From a virus, in IMG/VR virus record IMGVR_UViG_3300017706_001454, positions 1 through 32,142 of that record: a stretch of DNA of 32,142 nucleotides; one strand, 5' to 3'. This document shows positions 7,940-21,170 of the stretch, piece by piece (the first letter of the stretch is position 1; every line of letters starts with the position of its first letter). The notes below the pieces were generated by a model that saw nothing but the letters and a program-made list of their open reading frames with translations, had not been told where the DNA came from and made no database searches. The position numbers and the translations under genes are program-made.

Positions 7940-8175
7940 CAATCATCCTCCCCACGATAAACCCGCAAGCCCTCATCAGTCGAACGAGCAAACAAATTAA
8001 TCTTGTGGCGCTTGGCGTACTGATTCACAGAACAGCGCACGTTGCCGAAAGTTTTGGTGTCAGTCACAAGAAACGAATCGCCCGGCACCATCTCCTTGAA
8101 CGGATACCGCAGCGAACCAGGACCGACCGCTGGCTTATTGTCGGGCACGTCATGCCCTTTCTCTATCTCAAACAT
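7939..8175 (-). CDS. Hypothetical protein, 78 aa, possible DNA-binding type
   Basis: The protein begins MFEIEKGHDVPDNKPAVGPG and ends RSTDEGLRVYRGEDD. The middle segment (RYPFKEMVPGDSFLVTDTKT then VRCSVNQYAKRHKINLFARS) resembles short phage proteins in which a beta-strand region precedes a basic helix; the remembered type has the 'YPF..M..GDSF...' opening. Function is not established. The ATG at 8175 has GAGG 7 bp upstream, and a sigma-70-like promoter lies at 8204-8233. It is the first gene of the leftward operon from the control region. Confidence 0.78.
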   Translation of the reverse strand: MFEIEKGHDVPDNKPAVGPGSLRYPFKEMVPGDSFLVTDTKTFGNVRCSVNQYAKRHKINLFARSTDEGLRVYRGEDD

Positions 8176-8203
8176 TCAATAACCTCATAGCTGAAGAACC
8201 ACA

Positions 8204-8233
8204 TAAATACACCACCAATGCGCGCACAGTCAA
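8204..8233 (-). promoter_or_regulatory. Leftward early promoter
   Basis: On the minus strand TTGACT, an 18-bp spacer and TATTTA are present. The predicted start near 8197 leaves a leader of about 22 nt that includes GAGG before the ATG at 8175. Confidence 0.6.
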
Positions 8234-8238
8234 GCGCT

Positions 8239-8260
8239 CCAATTAATGCCCAATTAATAC
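8239..8260. repeat. 11-bp tandem direct repeat
   Basis: CCAATTAATGC is followed directly by CCAATTAATAC, two copies with one difference, flanked on both sides by CAAGCG (8231-8236 and 8261-8266). It lies just upstream of the -35 box of the leftward promoter, in a position suited to an activator, repressor or initiator. Confidence 0.6.
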
Positions 8261-8350
8261 CAAGCGTTTTGGCAAAAATTGGGAGGCAAAAAGAGTAGTA
8301 GAAACAAGAGAGTAGATATATTAAAGAGATATATTTTCTAATACTATTCA

Positions 8351-8379
8351 CTCTCTCTCTCCCTCTCTCTCCCCCTCCC
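8351..8379. repeat. 29-nt homopyrimidine tract
   Basis: This run contains only C and T on the plus strand, mostly CT dinucleotides then C-rich. It lies between an AT-rich patch and G-rich runs. Such mirror-like pyrimidine tracts can form triplex DNA; a role here is not shown. Confidence 0.6.
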
Positions 8380-8613
8380 GCCACCATTCTTCTGCTTTGA
8401 TGTGGGGGTGGGGGTATATCTCTCTCTAACCCTGTTTTCCGTGGTATTTTGGAAAAAAGCCCAGATTCAAGCACTTAGGCTGGGGTTTATACTAGATATT
8501 ATCTCCAGAATTAATAGACACCCCGCTCGCCTACCCCTCACCCCTCCCTCCCTTGTGGGTATGGGCTTCAGGGGGAGGGGGTGCATAAAAACGAACAAAA
8601 ACACAAACCCCCC

Positions 8614-8630
8614 GTTGACACCCGATCAAC
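8614..8630. promoter_or_regulatory. Candidate operator, 17-bp dyad
   Basis: GTTGACACCCGATCAAC has perfect 5-bp outer arms (GTTGA/TCAAC) and the same length as the dyad at 7407. It covers the -35 box of the rightward promoter. Confidence 0.58.
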
Positions 8631-8643
8631 AACGTGCTGATGT
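8615..8643 (+). promoter_or_regulatory. Rightward early promoter
   Basis: A consensus TTGACA is followed after 17 bp by TGATGT, a weak -10 box. The same arrangement (TTGACA, 17 bp, TGATAT) is seen at 12475. It would transcribe the accessory operon starting at 8667. Confidence 0.5.
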
Positions 8644-8666
8644 GAGGACAACAGAGGAGCAATGAC

Positions 8667-8858
8667 ATGGAAGTACTCACCTTGACCCTCGAAACCGGCA
8701 ACGCCGCTTTTGAAGACACGCCCGCAACCGAAATCGCGCGCATCTTGCGCGCCCAGGCCGACTTGATTGAGGCTGGCATGGCCACCGACGAAACGCCGCT
8801 CCGTGATATCAACGGGAACCGCGCCGGCGTTTGCACGATTGAAAACGTGGAGGCGTAA
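8667..8858 (+). CDS. Hypothetical protein, 63 aa
   Basis: The first gene of the rightward operon encodes a mainly helical, acidic protein; TPATEIARILRAQADLIEAG near residues 19-38 is an amphipathic helix, and NGNRAGVCTIENVEA ends it. This type of short phage protein ('...IARIL...AD.I..G') is common in phage early regions and has no known role. AGAGGAG lies 7 bp before the ATG. It ends 2 bp before the next gene. Confidence 0.8.
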   Translation: MEVLTLTLETGNAAFEDTPATEIARILRAQADLIEAGMATDETPLRDINGNRAGVCTIENVEA

Positions 8859-8860
8859 CG

Positions 8861-9112
8861 ATGGAACCCTATACAAAAAAGCTAGTGCGCGCCGCGTCCG
8901 ATTGGTTTAACCACCCCGACACCTATTGCCGCAAGTGCAACGCGAAAAACAGCGCCGCTTTTCTTGCGCCGGTATTCGTGGAAGGAATCGACGCCAGGAC
9001 CGGGCAGAAACACCCGACCGGAGTCGGCACGCATATCTGCCTAGATTGCGCCACCAAGCAAAACTGGATTGACGCGCGCACCGGAAACTTGCGCCCAGGC
9101 GTAACGCTCTAG
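8861..9112 (+). CDS. Putative zinc-ribbon protein, 83 aa
   Basis: A CRKC pair near residues 23-26 and a CLDC pair near 68-71 suggest a four-cysteine zinc ribbon; the linker is beta-rich (FLAPVFVEGIDARTGQ). DNA, RNA or protein binding is possible, but I do not recognise the family. GGAGG lies 8 bp upstream of the ATG and overlaps the end of the previous gene. Confidence 0.78.
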   Translation: MEPYTKKLVRAASDWFNHPDTYCRKCNAKNSAAFLAPVFVEGIDARTGQKHPTGVGTHICLDCATKQNWIDARTGNLRPGVTL

Positions 9113-9192
9113 CCCCGCCGGTTAGGGCATGGCCCCGCGCTATGCCCCTTCCCGCTGGACTGGCCAGCAGCAACGAAAAAAAGGAATCTGAC

Positions 9193-9684
9193 ATGCCGAA
9201 ACACGAAGTCAACGGCGTCCTAGGCACACTCAGCCCGGCCAATGCCGATGGATCTGGCACCTACTGGACAAGCGACTTTCGCCAGATCGGCGACGGCGAG
9301 CGCATGCAAGTCTATGTCCGCTATTCGCGCTATGGCGGCAAAAAGCACGCATCATTCGCCGTTACCGCGGAAATCAGGCGCGGCCGCAAGGTCGACGCGT
9401 GCGGATGCCTGCATGACGAGATCCGCGAGCACTTCCCCGAGCTGGCCCCGCTCTTGCGGTTCCATCTGCTCGACGACACCGGCCCGCTGCACTATATCGC
9501 CAACACGACGTATTGGGCTCGCCAGGGCGAACTTGACCACGCGCGAAAGTCCGCGTGCTGGCCGGACGCAACCGAGGCACAGCTCTTGAGCGAAACCGCC
9601 CTGACTGCGCGCCTGCCCGCTCTCCTGAACGAATTCCGCGCAATGCTGGCAGAAACCGGCATGAACATGGAGCCCGCGAAATGA
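9193..9684 (+). CDS. Hypothetical protein, 163 aa
   Basis: The product starts MPKHEVNGVLGTLSPANADG. The middle contains RKVDACGCLHDEIREHFPELAPLLRFHLLDDTGPLHYIANT, a recognisable phage motif in which an Asp/His-containing 'HLxxxxGPLHYxANxxYW' segment is conserved. The remembered family is of unknown function. I start at 9193, where AAGGAA precedes the ATG, not at an upstream ATG at 9142 without a ribosome site. The end overlaps the next start by 4 bp. Confidence 0.82.
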   Translation: MPKHEVNGVLGTLSPANADGSGTYWTSDFRQIGDGERMQVYVRYSRYGGKKHASFAVTAEIRRGRKVDACGCLHDEIREHFPELAPLLRFHLLDDTGPLHYIANTTYWARQGELDHARKSACWPDATEAQLLSETALTARLPALLNEFRAMLAETGMNMEPAK

Positions 9685-9935
9685 CCGACCAACACACCCC
9701 AGGCCCTTGGCGCTTTGAAGAAAGCACGAAGACCCTACGCGCCGTCCCGCAAAACTACTGGCTGGCCACGATGGACAGTTGGGACGGCGCCGTGAACCAC
9801 GAAGCAAACGCGCGCTTGATCGCCGCCGCCCCGGACCTGCTGGAAGCGCTGGAGCTGGCGCTTGTGGCTACCGATGGCACATGGGAGGACAAGGCCCGCG
9901 CAGCAATCGCGAAAGCAAGGGGACAGGAACTATGA
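9681..9935 (+). CDS. HTPGPW-type phage protein, 84 aa
   Basis: The protein starts MTDQHTPGPWRFEESTKTL and contains NHEANARLIAAAPDLLEALE, the two hallmarks of a very common phage accessory family whose function is unknown. The C-terminal helix continues AAIAKARGQEL. The ATG overlaps the preceding TGA (ATGA) and its own stop overlaps the next ATG in the same way, so three genes are coupled. Confidence 0.85.
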   Translation: MTDQHTPGPWRFEESTKTLRAVPQNYWLATMDSWDGAVNHEANARLIAAAPDLLEALELALVATDGTWEDKARAAIAKARGQEL

Positions 9936-10123
9936 GCCGGACATATGAGTTGATACAGGACCGATGCAAGCCGGGCGAATTCAGCCCAAGCGCCGGGCGA
10001 TGGCACTTCCAAATTGTCAACGCAGATGGCCATATTTGCCAAACGTCCCGCGCCGTGTACGCGAGCCCAGAGGAGGCCGAAATCGCAGCGCGTGAGGCAC
10101 TAACACAGGGGCAAGCAGCATAA
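9932..10123 (+). CDS. Hypothetical protein, 63 aa
   Basis: The product begins MSRTYELIQDRCKPGEFSPS and continues with a beta-strand pair (RWHFQIVNADGHI) and a helix (SPEEAEIAAREALTQG). It may share an ancestor with the next gene, which also has a strand-then-helix layout (FEFRVYDLNN). No function is recognised. It overlaps the previous gene by 4 bp and shares TAATG with the next. Confidence 0.8.
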   Translation: MSRTYELIQDRCKPGEFSPSAGRWHFQIVNADGHICQTSRAVYASPEEAEIAAREALTQGQAA

Positions 10124-10371
10124 TGTGGACGCGACGCAAAGACCCCAGCGGCCTGTTCGAATTCCGCGTCTACGACCTGAACAACCGGCTTTATGCGCGC
10201 GGCCAGGGCTACCCATGCCACAAAGAGTGCGAGCGCACCGCGCAAATTTATAACCGCGATGCGGTACTCTACCGCAAAGAGGCCCAGGGTGGGCCGATCC
10301 AGGCCGACTATATGGACCCGCAAGACTTTGACGCGGCGTTCGCTGCAATGCTGCAGGAAGTCGACCAATAG
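10123..10371 (+). CDS. Hypothetical protein, 82 aa
   Basis: The product begins MWTRRKDPSGLFEFRVYDLN and contains the segments YPCHKECERTAQIYNRD and DPQDFDAAFAAMLQEVDQ. Two cysteines (PCHKEC) could bind a metal or be chance. I do not recognise it. Its start overlaps the previous TAA (TAATG). The gap after it (10372-10509) has an inverted GGCGCC repeat at 10393-10414 but no T tract and no gene. Confidence 0.78.
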   Translation: MWTRRKDPSGLFEFRVYDLNNRLYARGQGYPCHKECERTAQIYNRDAVLYRKEAQGGPIQADYMDPQDFDAAFAAMLQEVDQ

Positions 10372-10509
10372 AACACCCGCCCCCTCCTTTCAGGCGCCTG
10401 CCAGCGGTGGCGCCAATCGGCCCGAATGTGTGCGACGGTCGGGGCAGCGGGTTTTGCATGTTAGACCTAATTCAGGCAAGCTGGCATTTTAACAACGAGG
10501 AGTAGATCC

Positions 10510-11163
10510 ATGAAAAAAGGCACAAACACCGGCAACTACAACACCGGCAACCGCAACACCGGCAACTACAACACCGGCGACCGCAACACCGGCAACCGCA
10601 ACACCGGCAACCGCAACACCGGCAACTACAACACCGGCGACTGGAACACCGGCGACTACAACACCGGCGACCGCAACACCGGCGACCGCAACACCGGCAA
10701 CTGGAACACCGGCGGCTGGAACACCGGCGACTACAACACCGGCGACCGCAACACCGGCTATTGCAACAGCGTCACGCCTAGCGAAATCTTGGTTTTCAAT
10801 AAACCGTGCTCGCGCGAAGAATGGCAAAACGCAGACAAGCCGCAATGGATGTGCTGTGCGCTTACAAAGTGGGTGCGCGAGGCCGATATGACCGACAAGG
10901 AAAAAGAGGCGAATCCGTCATACGTGACGACAGGCGGATATCTAAAGGCGTATTCGTCCCTGAAGGCCGCTTTTGTTGACGCTTGGGAAAATGCCGCGGA
11001 AGATGATCGCGAGCTGACAAAAAAGCTCCCGAATTTTGACCCGCACGTGTTCAAGGAAGTTTTTGGATTTGACCCGTTCAAAACCGACGAGCCGCGCAGC
11101 GATTGCGACGGCAAAACGGTTAAGATTGACGGCAAGCGTTATCGCCTGACCTTGGAGGAGTAA
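10510..11163 (+). CDS. Pentapeptide-repeat protein, NTG type
   Basis: The 217-aa protein has 16 consecutive five-residue units of the form [YRW]NTG[ND] at residues 5-84, then a conserved C-terminal domain beginning NSVTPSEILVFNKPCSREEW and including PQWMCCALTKWV and ELTKKLPNFDPHVF. NxGxx repeats form a right-handed quadrilateral beta-helix in related proteins. The C-terminal domain is one I remember from many phage proteins of this architecture, with no known function. GAGGAG lies about 7 bp upstream of the ATG. Variable positions alternate among Tyr, Arg and Trp, exposing an aromatic/basic face, so ligand, nucleic-acid or protein binding is plausible. It is not the Qnr-type A(D/N)LXX repeat. 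Confidence 0.88.
   Translation: MKKGTNTGNYNTGNRNTGNYNTGDRNTGNRNTGNRNTGNYNTGDWNTGDYNTGDRNTGDRNTGNWNTGGWNTGDYNTGDRNTGYCNSVTPSEILVFNKPCSREEWQNADKPQWMCCALTKWVREADMTDKEKEANPSYVTTGGYLKAYSSLKAAFVDAWENAAEDDRELTKKLPNFDPHVFKEVFGFDPFKTDEPRSDCDGKTVKIDGKRYRLTLEE
10522..10761 (+). repeat. 15-bp tandem repeat, 16 units
   Basis: The unit is AACACCGGC plus two variable codons (AAC/GAC/GGC, then TAC/CGC/TGG). It encodes the pentapeptide array. The core nine bases are essentially identical in all units while the variable codons change by two or more bases, which suggests copying or deletion of whole units. Confidence 0.92.
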
Positions 11164-11164
11164 C

Positions 11165-11275
11165 ATGACCTACACAGTCCAATTTGAAGACAAGACAACC
11201 AACGAGCTGTTCTGGCTCACGGTTCACCTGGTCGAAGATGTTGTCATTCCCCCGACAAGGGAAGGTGACGAATGA
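11165..11275 (+). CDS. Small hypothetical protein, 36 aa
   Basis: The peptide starts MTYTVQFEDKTTNELFWLTV and continues HLVEDVVIPPTREGDE, beta-rich and acidic. GGAGGAG lies 4-7 bp before the ATG. It ends with an ATGA overlap to the next small gene. I do not recognise it. Confidence 0.65.
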   Translation: MTYTVQFEDKTTNELFWLTVHLVEDVVIPPTREGDE

Positions 11276-11364
11276 CTTTTCGCCAGCGCCTCGCGGAAGC
11301 AACACAGGCCGCGATCGCCTTCTTTGTCACAGTCGCAATCTTGGGAGGCTTCAATGGAAGCTGA
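11272..11364 (+). CDS. Tiny membrane peptide, 30 aa
   Basis: The peptide has a basic amphipathic start (MTFRQRLAEATQ) and one hydrophobic span (AAIAFFVTVAILGGF). Its ATG overlaps the preceding TGA, and its stop lies inside the start of the next gene, which fits a coupled array. It could be a membrane-active accessory peptide; no family is recognised. Confidence 0.55.
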   Translation: MTFRQRLAEATQAAIAFFVTVAILGGFNGS

Positions 11365-11575
11365 ATGGAAACAGGAAGGTGTTTGGCTCAATGGCCAATA
11401 CATCGAGCACGCAGAGACGCGCCACGACGCCGCGAAAGCGGTAGACGAAATGGTCAACGCTTTGATGGAACTGCGTCAGAGCCTCGACCAGGGACCGCCT
11501 TGGACCCAGCAAGAGGCGGACGCCTTGAACGCCCTGCCGCACAGCGAACGACTAGCACAGAGGCTCGGAAGGTGA
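11354..11575 (+). CDS. Hypothetical protein, 73 aa
   Basis: The product starts MEAEWKQEGVWLNGQYIEHA and has a helical, acidic middle (AKAVDEMVNALMELRQSL) and a final TQQEADALNALPHSERLAQ segment. GGGAGG lies 5 bp before the ATG at 11354, so I prefer this over an upstream in-frame start. It overlaps both neighbours. No function is recognised. Confidence 0.75.
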   Translation: MEAEWKQEGVWLNGQYIEHAETRHDAAKAVDEMVNALMELRQSLDQGPPWTQQEADALNALPHSERLAQRLGR

Positions 11576-11763
11576 CGACCTATCTCATTAAAAAGCGCGT
11601 GCTGATCGAGGTCGAACACGAATTCGAGATACCGGCACTGACAGCAACGCAAGCAGGCCGGGAAGCGTCAAAGTATGACTTCCCGGTCCTAGTGATAGGC
11701 GGCCGCCAGACCGGCTATGTGGAGCCAGGAGAGACCGAGATTTGGGAGGAGGAAAGCCCTTGA
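11572..11763 (+). CDS. Hypothetical protein, 63 aa
   Basis: The start is GTG, overlapping the previous TGA (GTGA). The product begins MTTYLIKKRVLIEVEHEFEI and is a beta-helix-beta type of small protein with the segment LTATQAGREASKYDFPVLVI and an acidic end. Unknown function. Confidence 0.7.
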   Translation: MTTYLIKKRVLIEVEHEFEIPALTATQAGREASKYDFPVLVIGGRQTGYVEPGETEIWEEESP

Positions 11764-11837
11764 AACGCCCAAACTATTACAACCTGCTATTCGCGGTCGT
11801 GGTACTGGCCTACGTGCTCTGGCTTTGGGCCAGCTAG
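11760..11837 (+). CDS. Tiny membrane peptide, 25 aa
   Basis: The peptide reads MKRPNYYNLLFAVVVLAYV followed by LWLWAS: a basic start and a single hydrophobic span. It starts at TTG overlapping the preceding stop (TTGA), with GGAGGAGG upstream. The rightward array pauses here, facing the minus-strand nuclease cassette. Function is unknown. Confidence 0.5.
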   Translation: MKRPNYYNLLFAVVVLAYVLWLWAS

Positions 11838-11839
11838 GC

Positions 11840-12274
11840 CTAGCCCTCGTATTCCGCGACGATACTCTCGATCCGCTCCACGCACTCAGCAGGCGTCTTG
11901 GCTTTGACAACGTACACGTCATGACCAAGGCGCCTTAATTCGTCGTGGTACTGCGCTTGTTTCTCGCTCACGCGCCCGCCAGCCCGCTTCAATTCGACAT
12001 GGGCAGTGCGGCCGCCATCAAAGTACATGTCAATGTCAGGCGGCCCGGACTCAAGCCCCAGCGCTTTCAGTTTGCCAGCTTCGGAAGGTTTGCGCTTTGC
12101 GCCCTCCAGGCCGACACGAAACAAGATCCGCTCGCGGCGAAGGTACTGGACCGCAGCCATCTGCAGGTGATCTTCCCGCCAAGGAATTTTTTCGTCATGC
12201 CAATCGTGCTTGAGCAGGCTTGGGGATATTTTCTTTTGAGACATGGGATAAACCTGCAAGCCAGGGCGGCACAT
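11840..12274 (-). CDS. VRR-NUC family nuclease
   Basis: The 144-aa product carries the VRR-NUC/Holliday-junction-resolvase-like endonuclease core: an N-terminal WREDHLQMAAVQYLRRERILF helix with a Glu, GPPDIDMYF (residues 77-85) with the catalytic Asp, and TAHVELKRAGGRVSEKQAQYH (90-110) with the E-x-K pair. Such small nucleases cut branched or flapped DNA. The ATG at 12274 overlaps the preceding stop (TAATG); another ATG at 12244 (MSQKKISPSLL) with AGG 8 bp upstream may be the true start. It lies on the opposite strand to all neighbours. Confidence 0.88.
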   Translation of the reverse strand: MCRPGLQVYPMSQKKISPSLLKHDWHDEKIPWREDHLQMAAVQYLRRERILFRVGLEGAKRKPSEAGKLKALGLESGPPDIDMYFDGGRTAHVELKRAGGRVSEKQAQYHDELRRLGHDVYVVKAKTPAECVERIESIVAEYEG

Positions 12275-12429
12275 TATTGGTCAAGCCGGTGATAAATCTC
12301 CAGCCCAGCCACCCAAGGCCAGGACCACGCGGAAAATTCATAACGCTCGCGGTCGAACCAGCGGCTCAAGGCATCCAAAGCGACCGGCGTTAGGTACACG
12401 ACAAGAACAGTCCACAAAAACAAGAACAT
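12274..12429 (-). CDS. Small membrane protein, 51 aa
   Basis: The product starts MFLFLWTVLVVYLTPVALDA, a membrane span, then a basic segment (LSRWFDRERYEF) and a Trp-rich segment (SAWSWPWVAGLEIY). GGGAGA lies 7 bp before the ATG at 12429. Its stop overlaps the nuclease start (TAATG), forming a two-gene minus-strand cassette. I do not recognise it; a membrane partner or a superinfection-exclusion peptide are both possible. Confidence 0.68.
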   Translation of the reverse strand: MFLFLWTVLVVYLTPVALDALSRWFDRERYEFSAWSWPWVAGLEIYHRLDQ

Positions 12430-12458
12430 AAAGCGCTCTCCCAAAAAACATGCTTGAT

Positions 12459-12486
12459 ATTATCACACACCAGCTTGACAGGCCAA
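12459..12486 (-). promoter_or_regulatory. Promoter of the membrane/nuclease cassette
   Basis: On the minus strand TTGGCC, 16 bp and GATAAT with an extended TGT are present, giving a start near 12452. Its -35 box abuts the -35 box of the rightward promoter at 12475, so the two promoters are back to back. Confidence 0.5.
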
Positions 12487-12503
12487 CACTCATCTGTTGA
12501 TAT
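12475..12503 (+). promoter_or_regulatory. Rightward promoter of the second accessory block
   Basis: TTGACA, 17 bp and TGATAT match the arrangement at 8615. The predicted start near 12510 lies within the dyad at 12496-12512 and leaves a leader of about 18 nt with GGAG. Confidence 0.55.
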
Positions 12504-12512
12504 GACGTCAAT
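12496..12512. promoter_or_regulatory. Candidate operator, 17-bp dyad
   Basis: GTTGATATGACGTCAAT matches the GTTGA-N7-TCAAC pattern except at the last base, with a TGACGTCA palindrome inside. It overlaps the -10 box and start site of the rightward promoter. Confidence 0.55.
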
Positions 12513-12527
12513 CAATTGGAGCTAACC

Positions 12528-12725
12528 ATGACTGTATCAATTACACCCCTAGAGATAGGCCCGCCGCCCACCGACCGACCGTTTCTGGTGCGCGCCAAGG
12601 ATGAATTTGGTTTCTTCGACTTCGGCTCCCATTGCGTCGTGATCGACGGAAAGGTGTGCACGAAGAAGTTTCGCAAGCCCATCAAGCCCGAGGTGATCGG
12701 CTGGAGGGAGGTGCCTAATGTCTGA
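12528..12725 (+). CDS. Hypothetical protein, 65 aa
   Basis: The product starts MTVSITPLEIGPPPTDRPFL and has the 'FFDFGSHCVVIDGKV' strand segment and a final IKPEVIGWREVP. The pattern (a WxxVP ending) is common in small phage early proteins of unknown role. GGAG lies 6 bp before the ATG at 12528. It overlaps the next gene by 8 bp. Confidence 0.78.
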   Translation: MTVSITPLEIGPPPTDRPFLVRAKDEFGFFDFGSHCVVIDGKVCTKKFRKPIKPEVIGWREVPNV

Positions 12726-13152
12726 CGCCATCCTGGACAGCGCGATCGAACTGCACGCTCACGAGCCTTCGAGGGAAATTCTTCGCAAGTTTCGCGACGA
12801 GTTCCTGGCCCTGCAGCAATACGTGCAAGAGCTGACCGCGGAAACGCAGAGCGCCCCAGTCGAATGGAACCTGACCGAGAGCCAGGAGACAATCGTTCGC
12901 CTGCTGGCAGTAAACCAGACCGTGACCTACTCGGCGATCATGCATGCCCTTTATTCCGACCGCGCAGGGGATGAACCCTATAACGAAATCATCAAGGTGT
13001 TTATCTCCAAGGCGCGTCAGAAGTTACGCCCGTTTGGCATCACGATCGAGACGGTATGGGGCAAGGGCTTCGCCGTCGACGAGGACAACTGGAAGCGTTT
13101 GCGCGCTGGCTTTGGAATTGGGGAAGGCGAATGCCAAAGCTCTGGACAGTAA
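12718..13152 (+). CDS. Winged-helix (Trans_reg_C-like) regulator
   Basis: The 144-aa protein has a helical N-terminal half (LRKFRDEFLALQQYVQELTAET) and a C-terminal OmpR/PhoB-type winged helix: LTESQETIVRLLAVNQTVTYSAIMHAL (residues 52-78), then EIIKVFISKARQKLRPFGITIETVWGKGFAV (89-119), matching the recognition-helix and wing spacing. Similar single-domain proteins occur in phage early operons. It probably binds DNA and may regulate accessory genes. GGAGG precedes the ATG. There is no receiver domain. Confidence 0.82.
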   Translation: MSDAILDSAIELHAHEPSREILRKFRDEFLALQQYVQELTAETQSAPVEWNLTESQETIVRLLAVNQTVTYSAIMHALYSDRAGDEPYNEIIKVFISKARQKLRPFGITIETVWGKGFAVDEDNWKRLRAGFGIGEGECQSSGQ

Positions 13153-13307
13153 AGGACGACGCCTACGGGCACAGCATCGAAAGCGCCAACGGCGATTGGA
13201 TCAGCATCACCTCGGCCTTCGGTGCCGCCTGGCTTGCCGTGGAGCTGAACCGGCTTCACCAGGTTGAACTGAAACTGAAAGAACTAGAGAAGGAGCGGAG
13301 AAAATGA
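13131..13307 (+). CDS. Hypothetical protein, 58 aa
   Basis: The product starts MPKLWTVKDDAYGHSIESAN and has NGDWISITSAFGAAWLAVEL and a charged coiled tail (ELKLKELEKERRK). It starts 22 bp before the preceding stop, with GGGAAGG as ribosome site. No family is recognised. Confidence 0.72.
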   Translation: MPKLWTVKDDAYGHSIESANGDWISITSAFGAAWLAVELNRLHQVELKLKELEKERRK

Positions 13308-13507
13308 GCGAGCGCCTGGAATGCACTTGGTGCGGGACTGACACGGCAGAGCTGCGCTGGACGGGATATGACACGCGCCTGAATGACGCAAACCCGACCT
13401 GCGCAGAATGTTGCCCTGACTTCTCAACGGGCGGATGCGGTGATCCGGTGATGGATGGCCCATGCTTTGATGATCTGCCGATTGCTCAGAAAGGAGCGAG
13501 CAAATGA
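13304..13507 (+). CDS. Cys-rich small protein, 67 aa
   Basis: The product begins MSERLECTWCGTDTAEL and carries CTWC (7-10), CAECC (33-37) and later cysteines, a layout compatible with a zinc ribbon. Start overlaps the preceding TGA (ATGA), and its own stop overlaps the next ATG. Function is unknown. Confidence 0.78.
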   Translation: MSERLECTWCGTDTAELRWTGYDTRLNDANPTCAECCPDFSTGGCGDPVMDGPCFDDLPIAQKGASK

Positions 13508-14313
13508 GCCGTGACAAAAAATACGAATTTACCGGCGAGACAAAAACAGCCTTTGGCCGCACGCTCCACCAGATCCGGGCAGTCGTGCCCATCGACGCAA
13601 TCGGCGTGGCGGCGGGCGATGTAGGAGGCTGGATCGAGAGCGAGAAAAACCTTTCCCAAGAAGGCGATGCTTGGGTCTCCGGCAATGCTCAGGTCTACGG
13701 CAATGCTCAGGTCTCCGGCGATGCTCAGGTCTACGGCAATGCTTGGGTCTCCGGCAATGCTCAGGTCTACGGCAATGCTCAGGTCTACGGCGATGCTCAG
13801 GTCTACGGCAATGCTTGGGTCTCCGGCAATGCTCAGGTCTACGGCAATGCTCAGGTCTACGGCGATGCTTGGGTCTCCGGCGATGCTTGGGTCTACGGCA
13901 ATGCTTGGGTCTCCGGCAATGCTCAGGTCTACGGCAATGCTCAGGTCTACGGCAATGCTCAGGTCTACGGCGATGCTTGGGTCTACGGCAATGCTCAGGT
14001 CTACGGCAATGCTTGGGTCTACGGCGATGCTTGGGTCTACGGCAATGCTCAGGTCTACGGCAATGCTTGGGTCTACGGCAATGCTGAGTGCCTTTGGTTT
14101 TCAAAGGTTGGGTCAGAAAACGGCACGCTCACGGCATGTCGATCCAAGGACGGAGTTTGGGTTTCTCGCGGGTGTTTCTCAGGAAGCCTAGAAGAATTTG
14201 AGGAAGCCGTTCAAAAAACGCACGGAGACAGCCAGATTGCTAAGCAATATGCACTGCTGATCGAGTTCATTAGGCTTCGCGCTGCATCTTGGAAGGATCA
14301 AGCAAATGACTAA
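13504..14313 (+). CDS. Hexapeptide-repeat left-handed beta-helix protein
   Basis: The 269-aa protein has an N-terminal domain (YEFTGETKTAFGRTLHQIRA, ending GGWIESEKNL at about residue 50), then 23 exact six-residue units G[ND]A[QW]V[YS] at residues 54-191 and a degenerate final unit, then a C-terminal domain (ENGTLTACRSKDGVWVSRGC, then a helical QIAKQYALLIEFIRL). Such GNAxV repeats form left-handed parallel beta-helices. This architecture is common in phage proteins, but the role is unknown. AAGGAG precedes the ATG. Variable positions are limited to Asn/Asp, Gln/Trp and Tyr/Ser. Confidence 0.88.
   Translation: MSRDKKYEFTGETKTAFGRTLHQIRAVVPIDAIGVAAGDVGGWIESEKNLSQEGDAWVSGNAQVYGNAQVSGDAQVYGNAWVSGNAQVYGNAQVYGDAQVYGNAWVSGNAQVYGNAQVYGDAWVSGDAWVYGNAWVSGNAQVYGNAQVYGNAQVYGDAWVYGNAQVYGNAWVYGDAWVYGNAQVYGNAWVYGNAECLWFSKVGSENGTLTACRSKDGVWVSRGCFSGSLEEFEEAVQKTHGDSQIAKQYALLIEFIRLRAASWKDQAND
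13663..14076 (+). repeat. 18-bp tandem repeat, 23 units
   Basis: Units have the form GGC(A/G)ATGCT(CAG/TGG)GTC(TAC/TCC). Outside these three sites the units are the same, so the array is a binary mosaic. Gln/Trp alternation (CAG/TGG) needs two base changes, which points to unit duplication and shuffling. Confidence 0.93.
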
Positions 14314-14665
14314 CATTCAATTCAAACTCGGAGACGCCGTGCAACTGCGCAATGGCTGGGATGCCAAGGTGCTCGACGTGGTGGAAGGGCAGGAATATTG
14401 TGTATTCCTTCGGTATAGGGATGGTGACGGCAAATGGGACTTTATCTCCGTGCGTGCAGACGGTCGGTATCTACGTGACGAAAAAAGCCCCCTCGACCTC
14501 ATCCACAAGCCCAAGCGCATGTCTGGTTTCGTGAATGTGTATCAAGGGTATGCCACAGGAGTATTCACCAATCGCGCCAGTGCAGACATTGATGACAGGC
14601 ACGCGACATTCACCCGCATCGCCTGCATTGACCTGTCGCAATTCGAAGAAGGAGAAGGGCTGTGA
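14306..14665 (+). CDS. Hypothetical protein, 119 aa
   Basis: The product starts MTNIQFKLGDAVQLRNGWDA. The first half is beta-rich, SH3-like (AKVLDVVEGQEYCVFLRYRD), and the second half has RMSGFVNVYQGYATGVFTNRASADIDD followed by RIACIDLSQ, a conserved phage segment that I recall from many early-region proteins. Function is unknown. The start overlaps the previous stop by 8 bp; AAGGA is upstream. Confidence 0.82.
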   Translation: MTNIQFKLGDAVQLRNGWDAKVLDVVEGQEYCVFLRYRDGDGKWDFISVRADGRYLRDEKSPLDLIHKPKRMSGFVNVYQGYATGVFTNRASADIDDRHATFTRIACIDLSQFEEGEGL

Positions 14666-14811
14666 CCATTGAAGAACTGAAGAAGGCGCTTTTTACCGTC
14701 ACGCAGCGCGGCGTCTTGATCGTCAACAATCGCACACAGTTCGAACGGTTCCGTCGTCACGGCGTGCCAGCCGATCAGATGCGTATCAGCACGGAGATTC
14801 CGAAGTCATGA
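14662..14811 (+). CDS. Small hypothetical protein, 49 aa
   Basis: The GTG start overlaps the preceding TGA (GTGA). The product starts MTIEELKKALFTVTQRGVLI and continues VNNRTQFERFRRHGVP. The first nine residues resemble those of the next gene (MTVEELKQAL), so the pair may have arisen by partial duplication. GAAGGAGAAGG lies upstream. Confidence 0.7.
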   Translation: MTIEELKKALFTVTQRGVLIVNNRTQFERFRRHGVPADQMRISTEIPKS

Positions 14812-15152
14812 CCGTTGAAGAACTGAAACAGGCTCTTGAGGCGGCAACGCCGGGACCATTTGCCTGCGATCCACTCGACATTGGCCTTGTCGGCAATGTG
14901 TCCACTGTGGACGGCGACCCATTCGCCATGACAAGCGAACGGCCCGAGCGGGCGGGTGATGTGGTTCGCCAAAAACAGCAACGCCAAGCCAACGCCCGCC
15001 TAATCGTCGCAGCCGTCAACAACCTGCCCAAGCTGGTCGCAGTGGCAGAGGCGGCGGAAAACGCGGTGGACGGGGCGCGCCCTTGTTTGGGTGCAGATTT
15101 GGACGCCCTCGCCAAAGCAATTGAGGAGTTGAACGATGACCCCACGTCTTAA
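14808..15152 (+). CDS. Ead/Ea22-like hypothetical protein, 114 aa
   Basis: The product has the ALEAATPGPFACDPL start and QANARLIVAAVNNLPKLVAVAEAAEN helix typical of the Ead/Ea22-like group of small phage proteins, whose role is not known. The C-terminus (AIEELNDDPTS) shares an 18-bp segment with the end of the next gene. ATGA overlaps the previous stop. Confidence 0.78.
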   Translation: MTVEELKQALEAATPGPFACDPLDIGLVGNVSTVDGDPFAMTSERPERAGDVVRQKQQRQANARLIVAAVNNLPKLVAVAEAAENAVDGARPCLGADLDALAKAIEELNDDPTS

Positions 15153-15498
15153 AATTTCTGTTTGCACATTCCAGGGCGGCGACTTTGACGTAATGCTTAT
15201 CGACAAAGAAACCGGAGAGGAAGTTTGTTTTTCTGGCAATCAAAAGATAACCGACGAACAGCTTGATATTGTGAACAGGCTTGCGCCCGCTTGCGTCTGG
15301 ACAACCTATTACCCCTCTGAGCAGTACAAAGCACTCCAAGCCCGGTGCGACGAGCTGCTGAAGGTGGCCGAGGCGGCGAAAGACTTGCCGCACCTGTACG
15401 ACCAAGCAGCGGCAGACCCGTATGACGTGGGGTACAGCCAAGTATCCGACGAGATAGAGCTGCTACGCAAAGCACTGGAGGAGTTGAACGATGACTGA
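15136..15498 (+). CDS. Hypothetical protein, 120 aa
   Basis: The product begins MTPRLKISVCTFQGGDFDVM, a beta-strand domain, then helical sequence (QYKALQARCDELLKVAEAAKDL). It shares its last ten residues (ALEELNDD) with the preceding gene, including the ribosome site used by the next gene. No family is recognised. It starts inside the previous gene's 3' end. Confidence 0.75.
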   Translation: MTPRLKISVCTFQGGDFDVMLIDKETGEEVCFSGNQKITDEQLDIVNRLAPACVWTTYYPSEQYKALQARCDELLKVAEAAKDLPHLYDQAAADPYDVGYSQVSDEIELLRKALEELNDD

Positions 15499-15796
15499 GC
15501 AAAACACAGGCTGGAGAGACATTAGCACAGCTCCGTATGACGAAGTGGTTCTATTCTATACCCATGATGGGAACATTGTGCGGGACTTTATGTATGACTG
15601 CGGGACGAAAGAAATGGCGAGGTTCTACACACACTGGCAACCCCTTCCCCCACCACCCGATGAAGATGCAGCCGAATACCGTAACCAAGTCATCCAAGAG
15701 CTGATGGAGAAGGTTCCCGAAGGTCTTTGGGGCTTTTCACCCAGTGAGCAGGAGGCGGTTTCCGAATGGCTCAAGGATCAGATGGCGGGAGAATGA
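15491..15796 (+). CDS. DUF551-like hypothetical protein, 101 aa
   Basis: The product begins MTEQNTGWRDISTAPYDEVV, similar to the DUF551 type (GWxxISTAPxD), with a later HWQPLPPPPDED. The middle AAEYRNQVIQELMEK resembles the gene at 16311, and the end WLKDQMAGE is shared with two downstream genes. Function is unknown. Confidence 0.8.
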   Translation: MTEQNTGWRDISTAPYDEVVLFYTHDGNIVRDFMYDCGTKEMARFYTHWQPLPPPPDEDAAEYRNQVIQELMEKVPEGLWGFSPSEQEAVSEWLKDQMAGE

Positions 15797-16116
15797 AGAT
15801 GAGTAGTTTACGTTCTGACAAATGCTCCGCGACCTCGGGTGCGAGCCGGGGAGATTGGCGTCCCATAACCGACGAAATCAAAGACGGTCGGCTTGTCAAA
15901 CTGACATGGATGCATGACGGGGAGCCGCAAGACACCGCGCAAATGCGGTGGAGCGCTATCGCTCGAAACTTGCTCTTTCCCAAAGAGGTCGGGTTCTGGG
16001 TGACGCCCTGCGGAACATTTACGTGGAACCCGCACGACGGGTTCGGACCGACCCACTGGCGACCTTGTGACGAACCAAACTGGCTCAAGTCTCAGATGGA
16101 GGAGAGTGATGGGTGA
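15793..16116 (+). CDS. DUF551-like hypothetical protein, 107 aa
   Basis: The product contains DWRPITDEIKDGRLVKLTWM and GFGPTHWRPCDEPNW, the Trp-rich pattern of DUF551-like phage proteins, and ends WLKSQMEESDG. The ATG at 15793 overlaps the preceding TGA; an ATG at 15799 is possible. It appears related to the preceding gene by the Trp/His pattern. Confidence 0.75.
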   Translation: MKMSSLRSDKCSATSGASRGDWRPITDEIKDGRLVKLTWMHDGEPQDTAQMRWSAIARNLLFPKEVGFWVTPCGTFTWNPHDGFGPTHWRPCDEPNWLKSQMEESDG

Positions 16117-16324
16117 GACGTTAGCCGACACCCTGCGTCCGTGGGTCAGGTCAATCCAAGCCTCAGCCTCGACCGGCAACAAGACCGCATCCGAAATTAT
16201 CAACCTGTACGAAATGCACAGGCGCAGCCCTAGTGACCCTGCTGCGGTCGGATTATGCCGGGCGGCACTGAAAGGCTGGCTTCATGAGCAGAGCACCAAC
16301 AACAGGAGCAATGAAGATGATTGA
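16109..16324 (+). CDS. Hypothetical protein, 71 aa
   Basis: The product begins MGETLADTLRPWVRSIQASA and is mainly helical, containing TASEIINLYEMHRRSPSDPA and a Trp-containing end (ALKGWLHEQ). GGAGGAG lies just upstream, in the shared WLKSQM segment of the previous gene. No family is recognised. Confidence 0.72.
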   Translation: MGETLADTLRPWVRSIQASASTGNKTASEIINLYEMHRRSPSDPAAVGLCRAALKGWLHEQSTNNRSNEDD

Positions 16325-16598
16325 CATTCTTTGGCGAGCCTTCGCAGATGCGCACATCAAGGGCGCACAAGGCGTTCACGACGACCACGCCAAGTTGGTC
16401 GACTGGAAGGCAGAGGCCGCGCCGATTGCAGCCGAATGCCGCAACCAAGTCATCCGTGAGCTGATCGAGAAGGCGGAGAGTGATGAGGCAGTTTATGCTA
16501 TCCCGCTCCCGACACCGAAAGGGTATGATCCCATGTTTGTGCCTACTGTGAACGGCCCCCTGTCCGATTGGCTCAAGTCTCAGATGGAGGGAGAGTGA
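16311..16598 (+). CDS. Hypothetical protein, 95 aa
   Basis: The product begins MKMIDILWRAFADAHIKGAQ. It contains AAECRNQVIRELIEKAESD, related to the gene at 15491, and ends WLKSQMEGE. CAGGAG precedes the ATG at 16311; an ATG two codons later is possible. Unknown function. Confidence 0.75.
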   Translation: MKMIDILWRAFADAHIKGAQGVHDDHAKLVDWKAEAAPIAAECRNQVIRELIEKAESDEAVYAIPLPTPKGYDPMFVPTVNGPLSDWLKSQMEGE

Positions 16599-16817
16599 TG
16601 GTTAACTTTGCTGCTGCAATGCTGGTCATGACATCAGGCGCTCGCCGAAGGATGGACAGGGCGTGGGGCTACGGCCGGAGTGCGCCACCTCTACCTTAAT
16701 CAGCAGTTTTATGACTGGGTGGCGCTGGAACGCACCGAGACCACTACGCTTTTAGATACTCGCAAGACCGGCGCAGTTACCGAGTACCAAATTCTAATGA
16801 AGGATGATGTTAAATGA
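16598..16817 (+). pseudogene. Small gene split by an apparent +1 frameshift
   Basis: From the ATG at 16598 (GGAGGGAGAGTG upstream) a frame reads MVNFAAAMLVM and then runs into non-conserved, arginine-rich sequence to a stop at 16699. Skipping one base (A at 16631) joins the frame that continues HQALAEGWTGRGATAGVRHL, then YLNQQFYDWVALERTETT, and ends at 16817 with a clean ATGA overlap to the next gene. The composite is about 72 residues and looks more protein-like than either frame alone. Alternatives are a short 45-aa gene starting at GTG 16680, a sequencing error or programmed frameshifting. Confidence 0.5.
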
Positions 16818-17224
16818 CCAACGCACCCACCCTCGCCCCCGACAAGCGCCAACAGGTGATCGACGCAGCCGTCGCGGCGGCCGCGGATATTGACCCGGCC
16901 ACCGCCAGCCCGGCATTCAAGCGGTTGCTTGCGTCGGTCTTGGGCATGAACAAAGAAGCGCCCAAGGTCGGCCAAATCGTGGCGCTTAAAAATGAGTGCT
17001 GCGCCCTGTTTGGAGTGTCTTGGCTCGACATAGAAACGAAAAGAGACCACCGCCTGCGCAGCGCAAAACAGTGGTTTGCGTACAACGCCCTAAAAGCCGG
17101 GTTCTCTATTACGCGCGTCGGGCAGGTAATGAAGGCACACCACACCACCGTGATGCGCAACGCTGCGCTTTACCAGAAAGAGCGAAACGCTCCACACGTC
17201 ACAGGATTTGTGCTTAATGATTGA
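16814..17224 (+). CDS. DnaA domain IV-like DNA-binding protein
   Basis: The 136-aa protein lacks the AAA+ core but its second half resembles the DnaA C-terminal duplex-DNA-binding domain: SAKQWFAYNALKAGFSITRVGQVMKAHHTTVMRNAALY (residues 83-120) contains the HHTTV signature. The N-terminal half (PATASPAFKRLLASVLGM) is helical. It may help initiate replication by binding DnaA-box-like sites, or it may regulate transcription. It lies two genes before the primase. AAGGA precedes the ATG. Confidence 0.8.
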   Translation: MTNAPTLAPDKRQQVIDAAVAAAADIDPATASPAFKRLLASVLGMNKEAPKVGQIVALKNECCALFGVSWLDIETKRDHRLRSAKQWFAYNALKAGFSITRVGQVMKAHHTTVMRNAALYQKERNAPHVTGFVLND

Positions 17225-17381
17225 CAAAACAGCAGAGGAGCAAGCCGCCATCAAACGCGCCGGGAAGGCAGGCGGCGAGTACCTAGAGAGCATCGGCAAG
17301 GTTGACTTGTCGTCACTCACCGAAGATGAATGGCTGACATTTATCGAATGCGTCGTAACCGAGTGGAGCATCCCGTTTTGA
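17217..17381 (+). CDS. Small acidic hypothetical protein, 54 aa
   Basis: The product begins MIDKTAEEQAAIKRAGKAGG and ends with a recognisable EWLTFIECVVTEWSIPF-like helix, as in a DUF6511-like phage family whose members lie beside primase. It overlaps the previous gene by 8 bp and the primase start by 1 bp (TGATG). Role is unknown; its position suggests a replication accessory. Confidence 0.75.
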   Translation: MIDKTAEEQAAIKRAGKAGGEYLESIGKVDLSSLTEDEWLTFIECVVTEWSIPF

Positions 17382-19567
17382 TGGACATCAAAAACCACGC
17401 ACTGACCTACGCCCGCAAGTTCGGTTGGAAGGTGTTCCCCATTTTTGGTGTGGAAGACGGTTCCTGTCAGTGCGGCGAGCTGGATTGCGGATCCCCCGGC
17501 AAACACCCAACACAGCCAGGCGGGCTCAAGAACGCGACCACCGACGAGCGCCTGATAAATATGACGTTCCGGCCCGGCAATAATGTCGCCGTGGCCACGG
17601 GCGCAGACTCAGGCATTTTCGTGGTGGACGTGGACGGGCATGAAGGCGAACACAGCCTGACCCAACTGCAGCAGCAGCATGGCATGCTCCCCGCGACATT
17701 GGTCCACCGGACAGGCAAGGGCCGACACTTCCTGTTCAAGTACCCAGCAGAAGGCAAGGTCGCCAACTCCACCAGCAAGCTCGGCCCGAACATCGACGTG
17801 CGCGGGCACGGCGGATACATTGTGGTCGCTCCATCGACCCACATCTCCGGCGTTGAGTACCGATTTGACAATCTCGATCAGCCGATCGCCGAGGCACCCG
17901 GCTGGCTCCTCGACTTGGTGGTCAAGAAAGAGGCGCCGCTTCGGCTGGTAAGCCCAGCACCCTCGAACACGCCCGACGAGATTGAGAGCATGCTCTCAGC
18001 GCTCGACCCCGACATGCCATACGAGGACTGGGTGAACGTGGGTATGGCGCTGCATGCCGAAGGCTGCGACGTCACCGCATGGGACAGCTGGTCAAGCGGC
18101 GGGCAAAAGTATCGCGATGGAGATTGCGTCAAGCGCTGGCAGGGCTTCGACAAAACCGGCGGTGTGACTGCAGGAACGCTTCACCACATGGCCTGGGAAG
18201 CGGGCTGGCGCCCGCCCGAGCCTACCGGCCCCAACCCCGCGCAACCATTCCTCGACAAGATCCACGCCAACTATTACGGCACCGAGGACCTGACCGTCGA
18301 AACCGGCGGACTGCCTGATTTCCCGATCAAGTGCCTCGACATTCCCGGCATCATTGGCGACACCGTGCGCTGGATCGTGGCCAGCTCCATGAAGCCCCAG
18401 CCCGAACTGGCCCTCATGAACGTCCTGGCCGCACTGGGCTCTGTGATCGGCCGCGACTATGCAAGCCCGTGGGACACGCGCACCAATGTCTACATGGTCG
18501 GGCTTGGGCCAACTGGTTGTGGCAAGGACACGTCACGAAAACGCATCAAGGAACTGCTGGTTAAGGCGGGGCTTCACGACAAGCTGGCAGGCGACAGCGT
18601 GCGCTCTGGCCCCGGTTTGCTGCGCGGCATTCAGGACCGCCCCGCGTCGATCATGCACCTCGACGAGTTTGGCATGCTTCTCAAAGCCATCAACGACGAG
18701 AAGGCAGCGGGCTACATGCGCGAGGTCAGCAAGATCCTTACCGAGCTGTACTCGTCTTCTAACTCCACCTATCACGGCGGCACATACTCGGACAAAAAGA
18801 TCGAGCCAATCGTCATCGACCGGCCGCACCTGTGCATCTATGGCACGGCCACCGAGGAGACATACGCCGCAGCACTGACACGCTCCTCGATCGCGTCCGG
18901 CGAATGGAACCGCTTCATTGTTGCTCCCGTGCAGAACGACAGACCCCAGCGGAACCGGAGCGTTGCATCGGGCACACCCCCGGACTCACTGGTCGCAGCG
19001 TGGACAGCTCTCATGGACAACCGCCCCAACAAAACGGGCGGCAATCTGCAAGGCGTTATGCCGGCGTCCGCCCCCGAGCCAGCCATTGTGCAGTGGGGCG
19101 ACACCGAGGCGCGCATGCACGACCTGGGCGACAAGGAAGATGACCTCGCCTACGAGCACCGGGAGGACGGAACATCTGCGCTCTGGATGCGAATGCGAGA
19201 AAATGTTATTAAGATCGCGATGATATCGGCCGTTGCACGCAATCCCTTATCTCCCGTTCTGGAGCACGACGATGTGAGCTTTGGCGAAGCGCTAGTTCAA
19301 TGGTCGATCAGGTACATGAGCCATATCGCAAACCGCAAGATGGCCGACAGCCAAGCCGAGCAGGACTGCAATGTCATTCTCGACCTACTCACCAAACACC
19401 CCAGCGGTATGACGCGCACGGAGATTTCCCGCGCGACCAAAGCTATGTCGACACGACGGAGGAACGACGCACTGAAGGAACTTGAGTACGACCAGGAGCG
19501 CATTCGCGTCGCGGTCGATGGAGAAGGTAAAGGCCGCAAAGCGCAGAAGTTTTTTCTTTGCGCATAG
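17381..19567 (+). CDS. Prim-Pol primase with PriCT and DUF3987-like ATPase domains
   Basis: The 728-aa protein combines a Prim-Pol domain (residues about 1-185) with VVDVDG (81-86) as the catalytic acidic motif and HRTGKGRHFLF (109-119); a PriCT-type domain (about 195-285) with DPDMPYEDWVNVGMALH; and a C-terminal ATPase-like part with GPTGCGKD (376-383) as Walker A and IMHLDEFGMLL as Walker B. It should make primers, possibly with helicase or translocase activity. A Cys pair (CQCGELDC) lies near residue 29-36 and may bind zinc. The start at 17381 overlaps the previous stop. Confidence 0.92.
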   Translation: MDIKNHALTYARKFGWKVFPIFGVEDGSCQCGELDCGSPGKHPTQPGGLKNATTDERLINMTFRPGNNVAVATGADSGIFVVDVDGHEGEHSLTQLQQQHGMLPATLVHRTGKGRHFLFKYPAEGKVANSTSKLGPNIDVRGHGGYIVVAPSTHISGVEYRFDNLDQPIAEAPGWLLDLVVKKEAPLRLVSPAPSNTPDEIESMLSALDPDMPYEDWVNVGMALHAEGCDVTAWDSWSSGGQKYRDGDCVKRWQGFDKTGGVTAGTLHHMAWEAGWRPPEPTGPNPAQPFLDKIHANYYGTEDLTVETGGLPDFPIKCLDIPGIIGDTVRWIVASSMKPQPELALMNVLAALGSVIGRDYASPWDTRTNVYMVGLGPTGCGKDTSRKRIKELLVKAGLHDKLAGDSVRSGPGLLRGIQDRPASIMHLDEFGMLLKAINDEKAAGYMREVSKILTELYSSSNSTYHGGTYSDKKIEPIVIDRPHLCIYGTATEETYAAALTRSSIASGEWNRFIVAPVQNDRPQRNRSVASGTPPDSLVAAWTALMDNRPNKTGGNLQGVMPASAPEPAIVQWGDTEARMHDLGDKEDDLAYEHREDGTSALWMRMRENVIKIAMISAVARNPLSPVLEHDDVSFGEALVQWSIRYMSHIANRKMADSQAEQDCNVILDLLTKHPSGMTRTEISRATKAMSTRRRNDALKELEYDQERIRVAVDGEGKGRKAQKFFLCA

Positions 19568-19568
19568 C

Positions 19569-19585
19569 GTTGTTATGAGGTCAAC
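19569..19585. promoter_or_regulatory. Candidate operator, 17-bp dyad
   Basis: GTTGTTATGAGGTCAAC fits the GTTGA-N7-TCAAC pattern with one mismatch and lies between the primase stop and the metallophosphoesterase start. The minus-strand reading (TTGACC, then TCATAACAACGCTATGC) resembles the -35 and spacer of the promoters at 4842 and 31787, but lacks a -10 box. It also contains the ribosome site GAGG of the next gene. Confidence 0.5.
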
Positions 19586-19587
19586 GA

Positions 19588-20808
19588 ATGACACACCCCC
19601 TAGAATATCTGCGCATCCACTGCGCGACGGACCAGCAAGAGCAGAAACTCAACGCCTACATCAAGCACGGCACATGGGCAGGGGCCGCCCGCGAGCTGAA
19701 ATGCGACGAGAGCGCGGTGCGGCGATCGGTGGAAAGGCTCACCACACGGGCGACAATGTGCGCTCAAGGCCCACACTTCGCCGACCCGAATGGCATCCCG
19801 CGCCCCCTGCGCCTCAAAGGAACGTCCACGTACAAAGACGGTCAGTGGATCAAGACCGACGTGGACCGCATGCTGTACGAGCAGATGCAGCAGGAATTTG
19901 CGGAGACGTTCTTCCGAGACAGCTACGCCCCGCTCGACGTGAACAAGTGGGAAGGCTCGACAAGCAATGACGAGGACATCCCGTGGTTCCAGATCGGTGA
20001 CGCGCACCTCGGCATGCTGGCTTATTACAAAGAGGTCGGCCAAAACTTTGACTTGGATATTGCCGCGCGTGAAATCACCGCGGCATTTATGCATCTGATG
20101 GACAAAGCACCGAAGTCCAAGCGTTGCGTCATCAACGACCTGGGCGACTTCACGCATTACGAAAACTTCAAAAGCGAAACCGAGCATTCAGGCCACCGGC
20201 TAGACGCAGACGGGCGCTTCCCCAAGATGATTAGCGTCGTCAGCGCCGTGGTCCGTGGGTTTATACAGGCCGCGCTCACCAAGTACGAGTTCGTCGACTA
20301 CATCCCGAACCAGGGCAATCACTCCCGCACGAATGACATCTGGATGCGCGAGCTGATCGACGTGGCATACGGGCACACCGGCCGTGTTCATGCCCTGGAC
20401 AACCAAGGCGTTTTTGTCCCGTACAAGATGGGCAACACGTTCGTCATCACCCACCACAGCGACAAGGCCAGCGGTAAGAAATTGACCGACGTGGCGCTCA
20501 CGGACTATCGCGACTTCCTGAAAGAGTGCCGGCACCTTTACCTTGACACCGGCCACGTTCACCACGGGTTCTCGTTCAAGGAATACGCGCTAATTCAGGT
20601 CGAGAGCTGGAACAACCTCGCCGCCAACGACAAGCACCACCACGAGGCAGGTTGGCGATCCAAGCAAGCTATGTCGTGCGCCATACGAAACCGCAAGTAC
20701 GGCCAAGAAGACGTCCTGCGCGTGCCGATCGAGCGCATCTGGGACCAGCTGCAGGCCATGCCAAACGTCAAGACGTCCAAGCCGATCAGAACCGTCTACG
20801 AAGTCTGA
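19588..20808 (+). CDS. Metallophosphoesterase with N-terminal helix-turn-helix
   Basis: The 406-aa product has the five calcineurin-type motifs in order: GDAH (137-140), GDF (186-188), GNH (243-245), HH (289-290) and GHVHH (322-326), all of which bind the two metals. The N-terminal 60 residues include WAGAARELKCDESAVRRSVERL, a helix-turn-helix. This combination resembles phage DNA-repair phosphoesterases or Mre11/SbcD-like nucleases, so a DNA nuclease role is likely but not proven. It starts after GAGG, 20 bp from the primase. Confidence 0.88.
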   Translation: MTHPLEYLRIHCATDQQEQKLNAYIKHGTWAGAARELKCDESAVRRSVERLTTRATMCAQGPHFADPNGIPRPLRLKGTSTYKDGQWIKTDVDRMLYEQMQQEFAETFFRDSYAPLDVNKWEGSTSNDEDIPWFQIGDAHLGMLAYYKEVGQNFDLDIAAREITAAFMHLMDKAPKSKRCVINDLGDFTHYENFKSETEHSGHRLDADGRFPKMISVVSAVVRGFIQAALTKYEFVDYIPNQGNHSRTNDIWMRELIDVAYGHTGRVHALDNQGVFVPYKMGNTFVITHHSDKASGKKLTDVALTDYRDFLKECRHLYLDTGHVHHGFSFKEYALIQVESWNNLAANDKHHHEAGWRSKQAMSCAIRNRKYGQEDVLRVPIERIWDQLQAMPNVKTSKPIRTVYEV

Positions 20809-20817
20809 CGCCGAACA

Positions 20818-20842
20818 GCAAGGCAACCGCGTGTTGCCTTGC
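20818..20842 (+). terminator. 10-bp perfect hairpin
   Basis: GCAAGGCAAC and GTTGCCTTGC flank a 5-nt loop (CGCGT), 10 bp after the phosphoesterase stop. No T tract follows, so it may be a weak terminator or a 3'-end stabiliser; it also overlaps the -35 box of the next promoter. Confidence 0.5.
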
Positions 20843-20867
20843 AATCAATGTCAATACGCGCTATAGA
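20839..20867 (+). promoter_or_regulatory. Promoter of the Cro-like gene
   Basis: TTGCAA, 17 bp and TATAGA predict a start near 20874, inside the dyad at 20870-20883. This gives a leader of about 28 nt with GGAG before a GTG start. Confidence 0.62.
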
Positions 20868-20869
20868 TC

Positions 20870-20883
20870 GTCAACTTGTTGAC
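20870..20883. promoter_or_regulatory. Candidate autoregulatory operator
   Basis: GTCAACTTGTTGAC is a perfect 6-bp inverted repeat with a 2-bp centre. It uses the same GTTGAC half-sites as the 17-bp dyads but in opposite order. It sits at the predicted start of the Cro-like transcript. Confidence 0.55.
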
Positions 20884-20901
20884 AATTTCGGAGTCAAGAC
20901 T

Positions 20902-21132: not shown

Positions 21133-21141
21133 TTTTTGTGC

Positions 21142-21170
21142 TTGCCATATTGATTTCAGATCATTATGTT
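21142..21170 (+). promoter_or_regulatory. Promoter of the recombination genes
   Basis: TTGCCA, 17 bp and TATGTT are followed by a predicted start near 21177 and a leader of about 24 nt with AAGGAG. It lies just after the Cro-like gene. Confidence 0.5.

Follow-up and report, generated by a model that had tools for sequence, protein, structure and literature searches.

The reading best supported here, to which we give a probability of about 0.72, is that a nuclease for branched DNA has become detached from the helicase operon of its phage and lies in a leftward two-gene unit together with a lineage-restricted membrane gene. The unit was found in the viral record IMGVR_UViG_3300017706_001454, the whole of which (32,142 bases) constituted the window analysed. 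The oddity of the pair is limited to its gene order and its small lineage-specific membrane partner. The relevant features are the following.

Left part of the record, minus strand: portal, capsid, protease and terminase genes
About 8667-26953, plus strand: gene block between two minus-strand flanks
11761-11838, plus strand: possible 25-aa hydrophobic peptide (by-eye reading and alignment; weak)
11840-12274, minus strand: VRR-NUC nuclease, 144 aa, standalone domain
12274-12429, minus strand: 51-aa protein with one N-terminal transmembrane (TM) segment and a Trp-rich tail (ORF, hydropathy)
12430-12527: divergent intergenic region with two overlapping candidate sites (consensus scan and alignment with the relative)
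12459-12486: candidate leftward extended -10 site, TTGGCC-16-GATAAT, 9/12 match
12528-12725, plus strand: 65-aa protein (ORF), first rightward gene of the divergent pair
12718-13152, plus strand: 144-aa winged-helix (Trans_reg_C) protein, PF00486 at 26.8 bits against a cut-off of 26.2
25164-26753, plus strand: RadD-like SF2 helicase, with RadD-like, PF04851/PF00271 and phrog_16 matches
26750-26953: gene of a DUF3310 protein, directly 3' of the RadD-like helicase gene
27089-28331: recognisable lysis genes
Right part of the record, minus strand: lysis and tail genes

The portal protein is 46-49% identical to portals of epsilon15-like phages. The pair comprises the sole minus-strand genes retained by a simple gene caller between 8667 and 26953, and its strand is that of the terminase and capsid genes. 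The record also carries a recombination set consisting of PrimPol, Sak4, a DUF669 SSB-like protein, a Cas4-type exonuclease and the RadD-like helicase.

Between the structural genes, which point leftward, and the early genes, which point rightward, lies a non-coding divergent region of about 490 bases (8176-8666) with long CT-rich tracts, possibly an origin or a regulatory region. A fast-evolving pentapeptide-repeat protein, rich in Asn-Thr-Gly repeats, is encoded at 10510-11163 (dN/dS 0.58 against the close relative introduced below), and a tRNA-Tyr called inside this gene at 10686-10768 is probably an artefact. The 269-aa protein encoded at 13504-14313 has YdcK beta-solenoid repeats and a bactofilin-like match, odd for a phage early region. 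The possible 25-aa peptide would start with TTG here and with ATG in the close relative; it converges on the nuclease gene, the stop codons being a few bases apart. On the other side of the pair, the 65-aa protein is without a family match in Pfam, PHROGs and NCBIfam and shows a dN/dS of 0.086 against the close relative, and the winged-helix protein is a candidate regulator of the divergent region.

Both members of the minus-strand pair are genuine proteins

The sequence-only reading had described a coupled minus-strand pair of a 51-aa membrane protein and a VRR-NUC nuclease. The existence of this pair was borne out by the ORFs, by purifying selection and by the same arrangement in a relative. 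The stop codon of the membrane ORF and the start codon of the nuclease share one base (TAATG). In the single close relative found, IMGVR_UViG_3300044274_000081 (hereafter the sibling), the pair occupies the same place with the same orientation and overlap. Comparison of the two genomes gave 19 synonymous and 1 non-synonymous change in the nuclease gene (dN/dS 0.013), and 14.5 synonymous and 4.5 non-synonymous changes in the membrane ORF (dN/dS 0.061; 92% amino acid identity). This purifying selection equals or exceeds that of most neighbouring genes, and the annotated frame is the constrained one. Both pair members are thus genuine proteins, and a spurious membrane ORF was ruled out by the codon substitution pattern.

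The gene caller placed the nuclease start at 12244, giving a protein shorter than the 144-aa version. Since both base differences within the ten extra codons are synonymous, the 144-aa start is slightly favoured. The one-base overlap, present in both genomes, suggests coupled translation, and the membrane gene is probably translationally coupled to the nuclease gene on the strength of this junction. Searches with the DNA of the pair against plasmid records and with the DNA of the region against phage records were without a match, and an Rfam search returned nothing.

The nuclease is of an ordinary kind

VRR_NUC was the only Pfam domain to match the nuclease (PF08774, 25.6 bits against a cut-off of 23.8, E 1.4e-5), and in PHROGs it matches, among others, families of phage endonucleases and Holliday junction resolvases. 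The E-PD-ExK-Q site, as described for VRR-NUC in PMC4103454, is complete (E34, P79-D80, E94-x-K96, Q106) and invariant among 48 aligned sequences. A degenerate nuclease was ruled out by this intact active site.

The predicted model has a mean pLDDT of 75, with about 90 in the C-terminal half and low confidence for the first 27 residues. In a Foldseek search with this model, ranks 1 to 5 were all VRR_NUC chains (probability 0.99-1.00), with a best E of 6.1e-3 and none at E <= 0.001. VIA-align placed 4qbn first (Z 9.4, rmsd 3.2 over 90 residues), ahead of 4qbo (Z 8.5), the archaeal Hjc 4tkd (Z 8.3) and 4qbl (Z 8.1, rmsd 5.2 over 100), the Hjc being tied with 4qbo and 4qbl. A scan of a genome collection for nuclease relatives gave pattern matches, none of them confirmed.

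Its sequence and predicted fold mark the nuclease as a standalone VRR-NUC of the standard type. It resembles the standalone endonucleases of known structure (PF08774; psNUC, 4QBL; 4qbn and 4qbo) in single-domain size, in the E-PD-ExK-Q site and in predicted fold, but shares only about 16-21% identity with them over the aligned structure and is known here from its sequence and model. According to PMC4103454, standalone viral and bacterial VRR-NUCs are dimers that cut four-way junctions; psNUC cuts them symmetrically and leaves linear duplex uncleaved, and the standalone enzymes studied there prefer branched DNA.

VRR-NUC genes of other viruses usually accompany a RadD-like helicase

The gene neighbourhood was surveyed in the best 80 of at least 271 confirmed VRR-NUC loci. 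One of these is the sibling; the 79 others include many near-duplicates and form 31 clusters at 80% identity. In this best-80 sample a relative of the RadD-like helicase occurs at 64 of the 79 other loci, always on the nuclease strand, and within 700 nt at 53. These counts were obtained at E 1e-4; at E 1e-10 they are 63 of 79 and 52. Among the non-redundant clusters drawn from the same sample the helicase relative is present in 24 of 31, and within 700 nt in 22. Relatives of the Cas4-type exonuclease accompany the nuclease at 42 of the 79 loci from the best 80, and DUF669 at 21, again all on the nuclease strand. In GenBank phages VRR-NUC lies beside a polymerase and a helicase in some genomes and near the terminase in others. 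Together with the sequence, active site and fold, this neighbourhood bears out the ordinary explanation already allowed for by the earlier reading, namely that VRR-NUC is a common junction-processing enzyme of phages.

The usual adjacency fails in the present record: the nuclease gene (11840-12274, minus strand) and the helicase gene (25164-26753, plus strand) are separated by about 12.9 kb and lie on opposite strands, so the linkage argument rests on relatives that are 28-37% identical to this nuclease. The record thus shares with the helicase-linked phage modules (RadD-like helicase followed by VRR-NUC) the presence of both genes, and differs from them in the distance, in the strands and in having DUF3310 after the helicase. 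The slot occupied by the DUF3310 gene is often the place of VRR-NUC in other phages. The nuclease ORFs of loci L032 and L166 are on the minus strand.

The distribution of VRR-NUC among related viruses is sporadic. It was found in 2 of 19 portal-related records (19 of 27 loci examined), in 3 of 39 helicase-related records, 2 of them above the cut-off, and in 4 of 50 exonuclease-related records (50 of 80 loci examined), none above the cut-off; many records in each of these sets are fragments.

Regulatory signals around the pair

The claim that the pair has its own extended -10 promoter, back to back with a rightward one, held in part. The description of 12430-12527 as a divergent regulatory region is fair, and a separate extended -10 promoter for the pair is plausible only: the leftward site is one of two found in a consensus scan with a chance expectation of 1.1 +/- 1.0. 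In the sibling the corresponding hexamers are TTAGCG and GATACT, so that the -35 is changed and the TGTG ahead of the -10 is retained. As to the rightward promoter, the candidate TTGACA (about 12477) is unchanged in the sibling, but its -10 is poor (about 3/6 match) and the site is absent from the scanner output.

No terminator after the nuclease gene was reported in the scan; 11780-11860 folds only modestly (z -1.96) and has no U run. A leftward transcript might therefore run antisense through the genes of 8667-11763. A motif search between the divergent regions 8100-8700 and 12400-12560 gave 9-base matches only, for example GATATTATC at 8495 and 12456, too short to imply co-regulation.

The membrane protein is restricted to one lineage

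The best 19-residue Kyte-Doolittle mean of the 51-aa protein is 1.96, and its tail is mostly polar. The protein had no match in Pfam, PHROGs, NCBIfam or PADLOC, and tblastn against phage records returned none at E 1. A scan of the genome collection gave pattern matches and no confirmed relative. Among the 19 portal-related viral records it occurs only in the sibling, and tblastn detected a relative at none of the 79 other VRR-NUC loci (best 80 of at least 271, minus the sibling).

A small TM ORF of any sequence whose end is at most 60 nt from the nuclease frame was likewise seen only in the sibling, among the 77 of these best 80 loci (sibling included) that have sufficient upstream sequence. 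Raising the limit to 150 or 300 nt brings in one or two further loci (L211; L234), with ORFs that look unlike this one. On these comparisons the membrane gene is real and lineage-restricted. Most likely this small gene is either a hitchhiker or, through the coupling, a determinant of how much nuclease is made.

Alternative explanations of the pairing

A serious alternative, if a doubtful one, is that the two proteins are unrelated neighbours, the membrane protein acting as a peptide for host takeover or lysis timing, with the nuclease merely sharing its transcript. It agrees with the lack of a membrane protein relative near the 79 other VRR-NUC genes (from the best 80 of at least 271) and with the faster evolution of the membrane protein (dN/dS 0.061 against 0.013 for the nuclease). 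The one-base overlap retained in both genomes points instead to coupled translation, and the genes recognisable as lysis genes are found away from the pair, at 27089-28331.

It is unlikely that the membrane protein serves as a tether holding the nuclease at the inner membrane and so confining junction cutting to membrane-associated sites of replication or packaging. The overlapping genes, the single TM segment with its mostly polar tail and the conservation of both proteins would fit such a role, but other phages with a related nuclease have no such partner (best 80 of at least 271 loci) and the nuclease bears no extra domain apart from its low-confidence first 27 residues.

The pair had also been proposed to be an anti-phage, exclusion or host-control cassette, for which a comparison of synteny in relatives was suggested; this proposal was not supported. 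In the exclusion version the membrane protein would sense or mark the DNA entry of a second phage and the nuclease would destroy that DNA. The small membrane gene overlapping the nuclease gene, inverted relative to the surrounding operon and with a separate upstream region, has the look of such a cassette; both genes are under purifying selection, and in other settings the VRR-NUC domain has been put to use in conflict, in T6SS effectors (PMC9635880). The synteny comparison, however, found the pair travelling together in one close relative only and the membrane gene at 0 of the 79 other loci (best 80 of at least 271 VRR-NUC loci). Its absence from most relatives is the result that had been named as counting against a role in defence or exclusion.

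In PADLOC 8 proteins, among them the two of the pair, were without a match up to E 1. The standalone VRR-NUCs characterised in PMC4103454 prefer branched DNA, psNUC leaving linear duplex uncut, which does not favour the destruction of entering DNA. No integrase or lysogeny gene was present among the proteins scanned (part of the small ORFs included) or in the flanks as extended from relatives, although some of the genome may lie outside the records examined; an exclusion gene of a prophage is thereby less likely from the outset. A phage cassette of VRR-NUC with a membrane protein was not noticed in a literature search, although one may exist in print. The exclusion reading is considered very unlikely, and is retained at all since such a device could be built from a nuclease and a small membrane protein coupled to it.

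Very unlikely too is a membrane-coupled junction nuclease, in which the phage would have taken the enzyme out of the helicase operon and given it a membrane partner so that branched or forked DNA is cut solely at the membrane, be it at the phage's own packaging sites or at the entry of a competitor's DNA. A T6SS-type toxin with its immunity protein was ruled out: the antibacterial VRR-Nuc effectors (TseV) described in PMC9635880 belong to the same nuclease domain family, but neither their PAAR-like domain nor a DUF3396 immunity gene was found at this pair in Pfam.

A nuclease probably uncoupled from the helicase operon

We favour a branched-DNA nuclease set apart from the helicase operon, and the following picture would account for the arrangement. 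The nuclease would be the phage's branched-DNA endonuclease, of the Holliday-junction type, serving recombination-dependent replication and probably also the clearing of branches before packaging. Its partners would be the RadD-like helicase, the Sak4 annealing protein, the Cas4-type exonuclease and the SSB-like protein, whose genes are all on the opposite strand. In this lineage the nuclease gene appears to have been uncoupled from the helicase operon and to form a leftward two-gene unit with a separate upstream region, the membrane gene being presumably coupled to nuclease translation. Because the unit shares its strand with the terminase and head genes and has its own upstream region, expression of the nuclease may come later than that of the early operon or be independent of it. 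Independent and perhaps late expression would suit branch clearing before packaging.

The pair calls for some caution in the interpretation of gene neighbourhoods, since a membrane gene adjoining a nuclease gene resembles a defence cassette, and the neighbourhood counts give the helicase as the usual partner of this nuclease. If placement on the late strand does mean late expression, the phage would offer a natural case of a junction nuclease re-timed for packaging.
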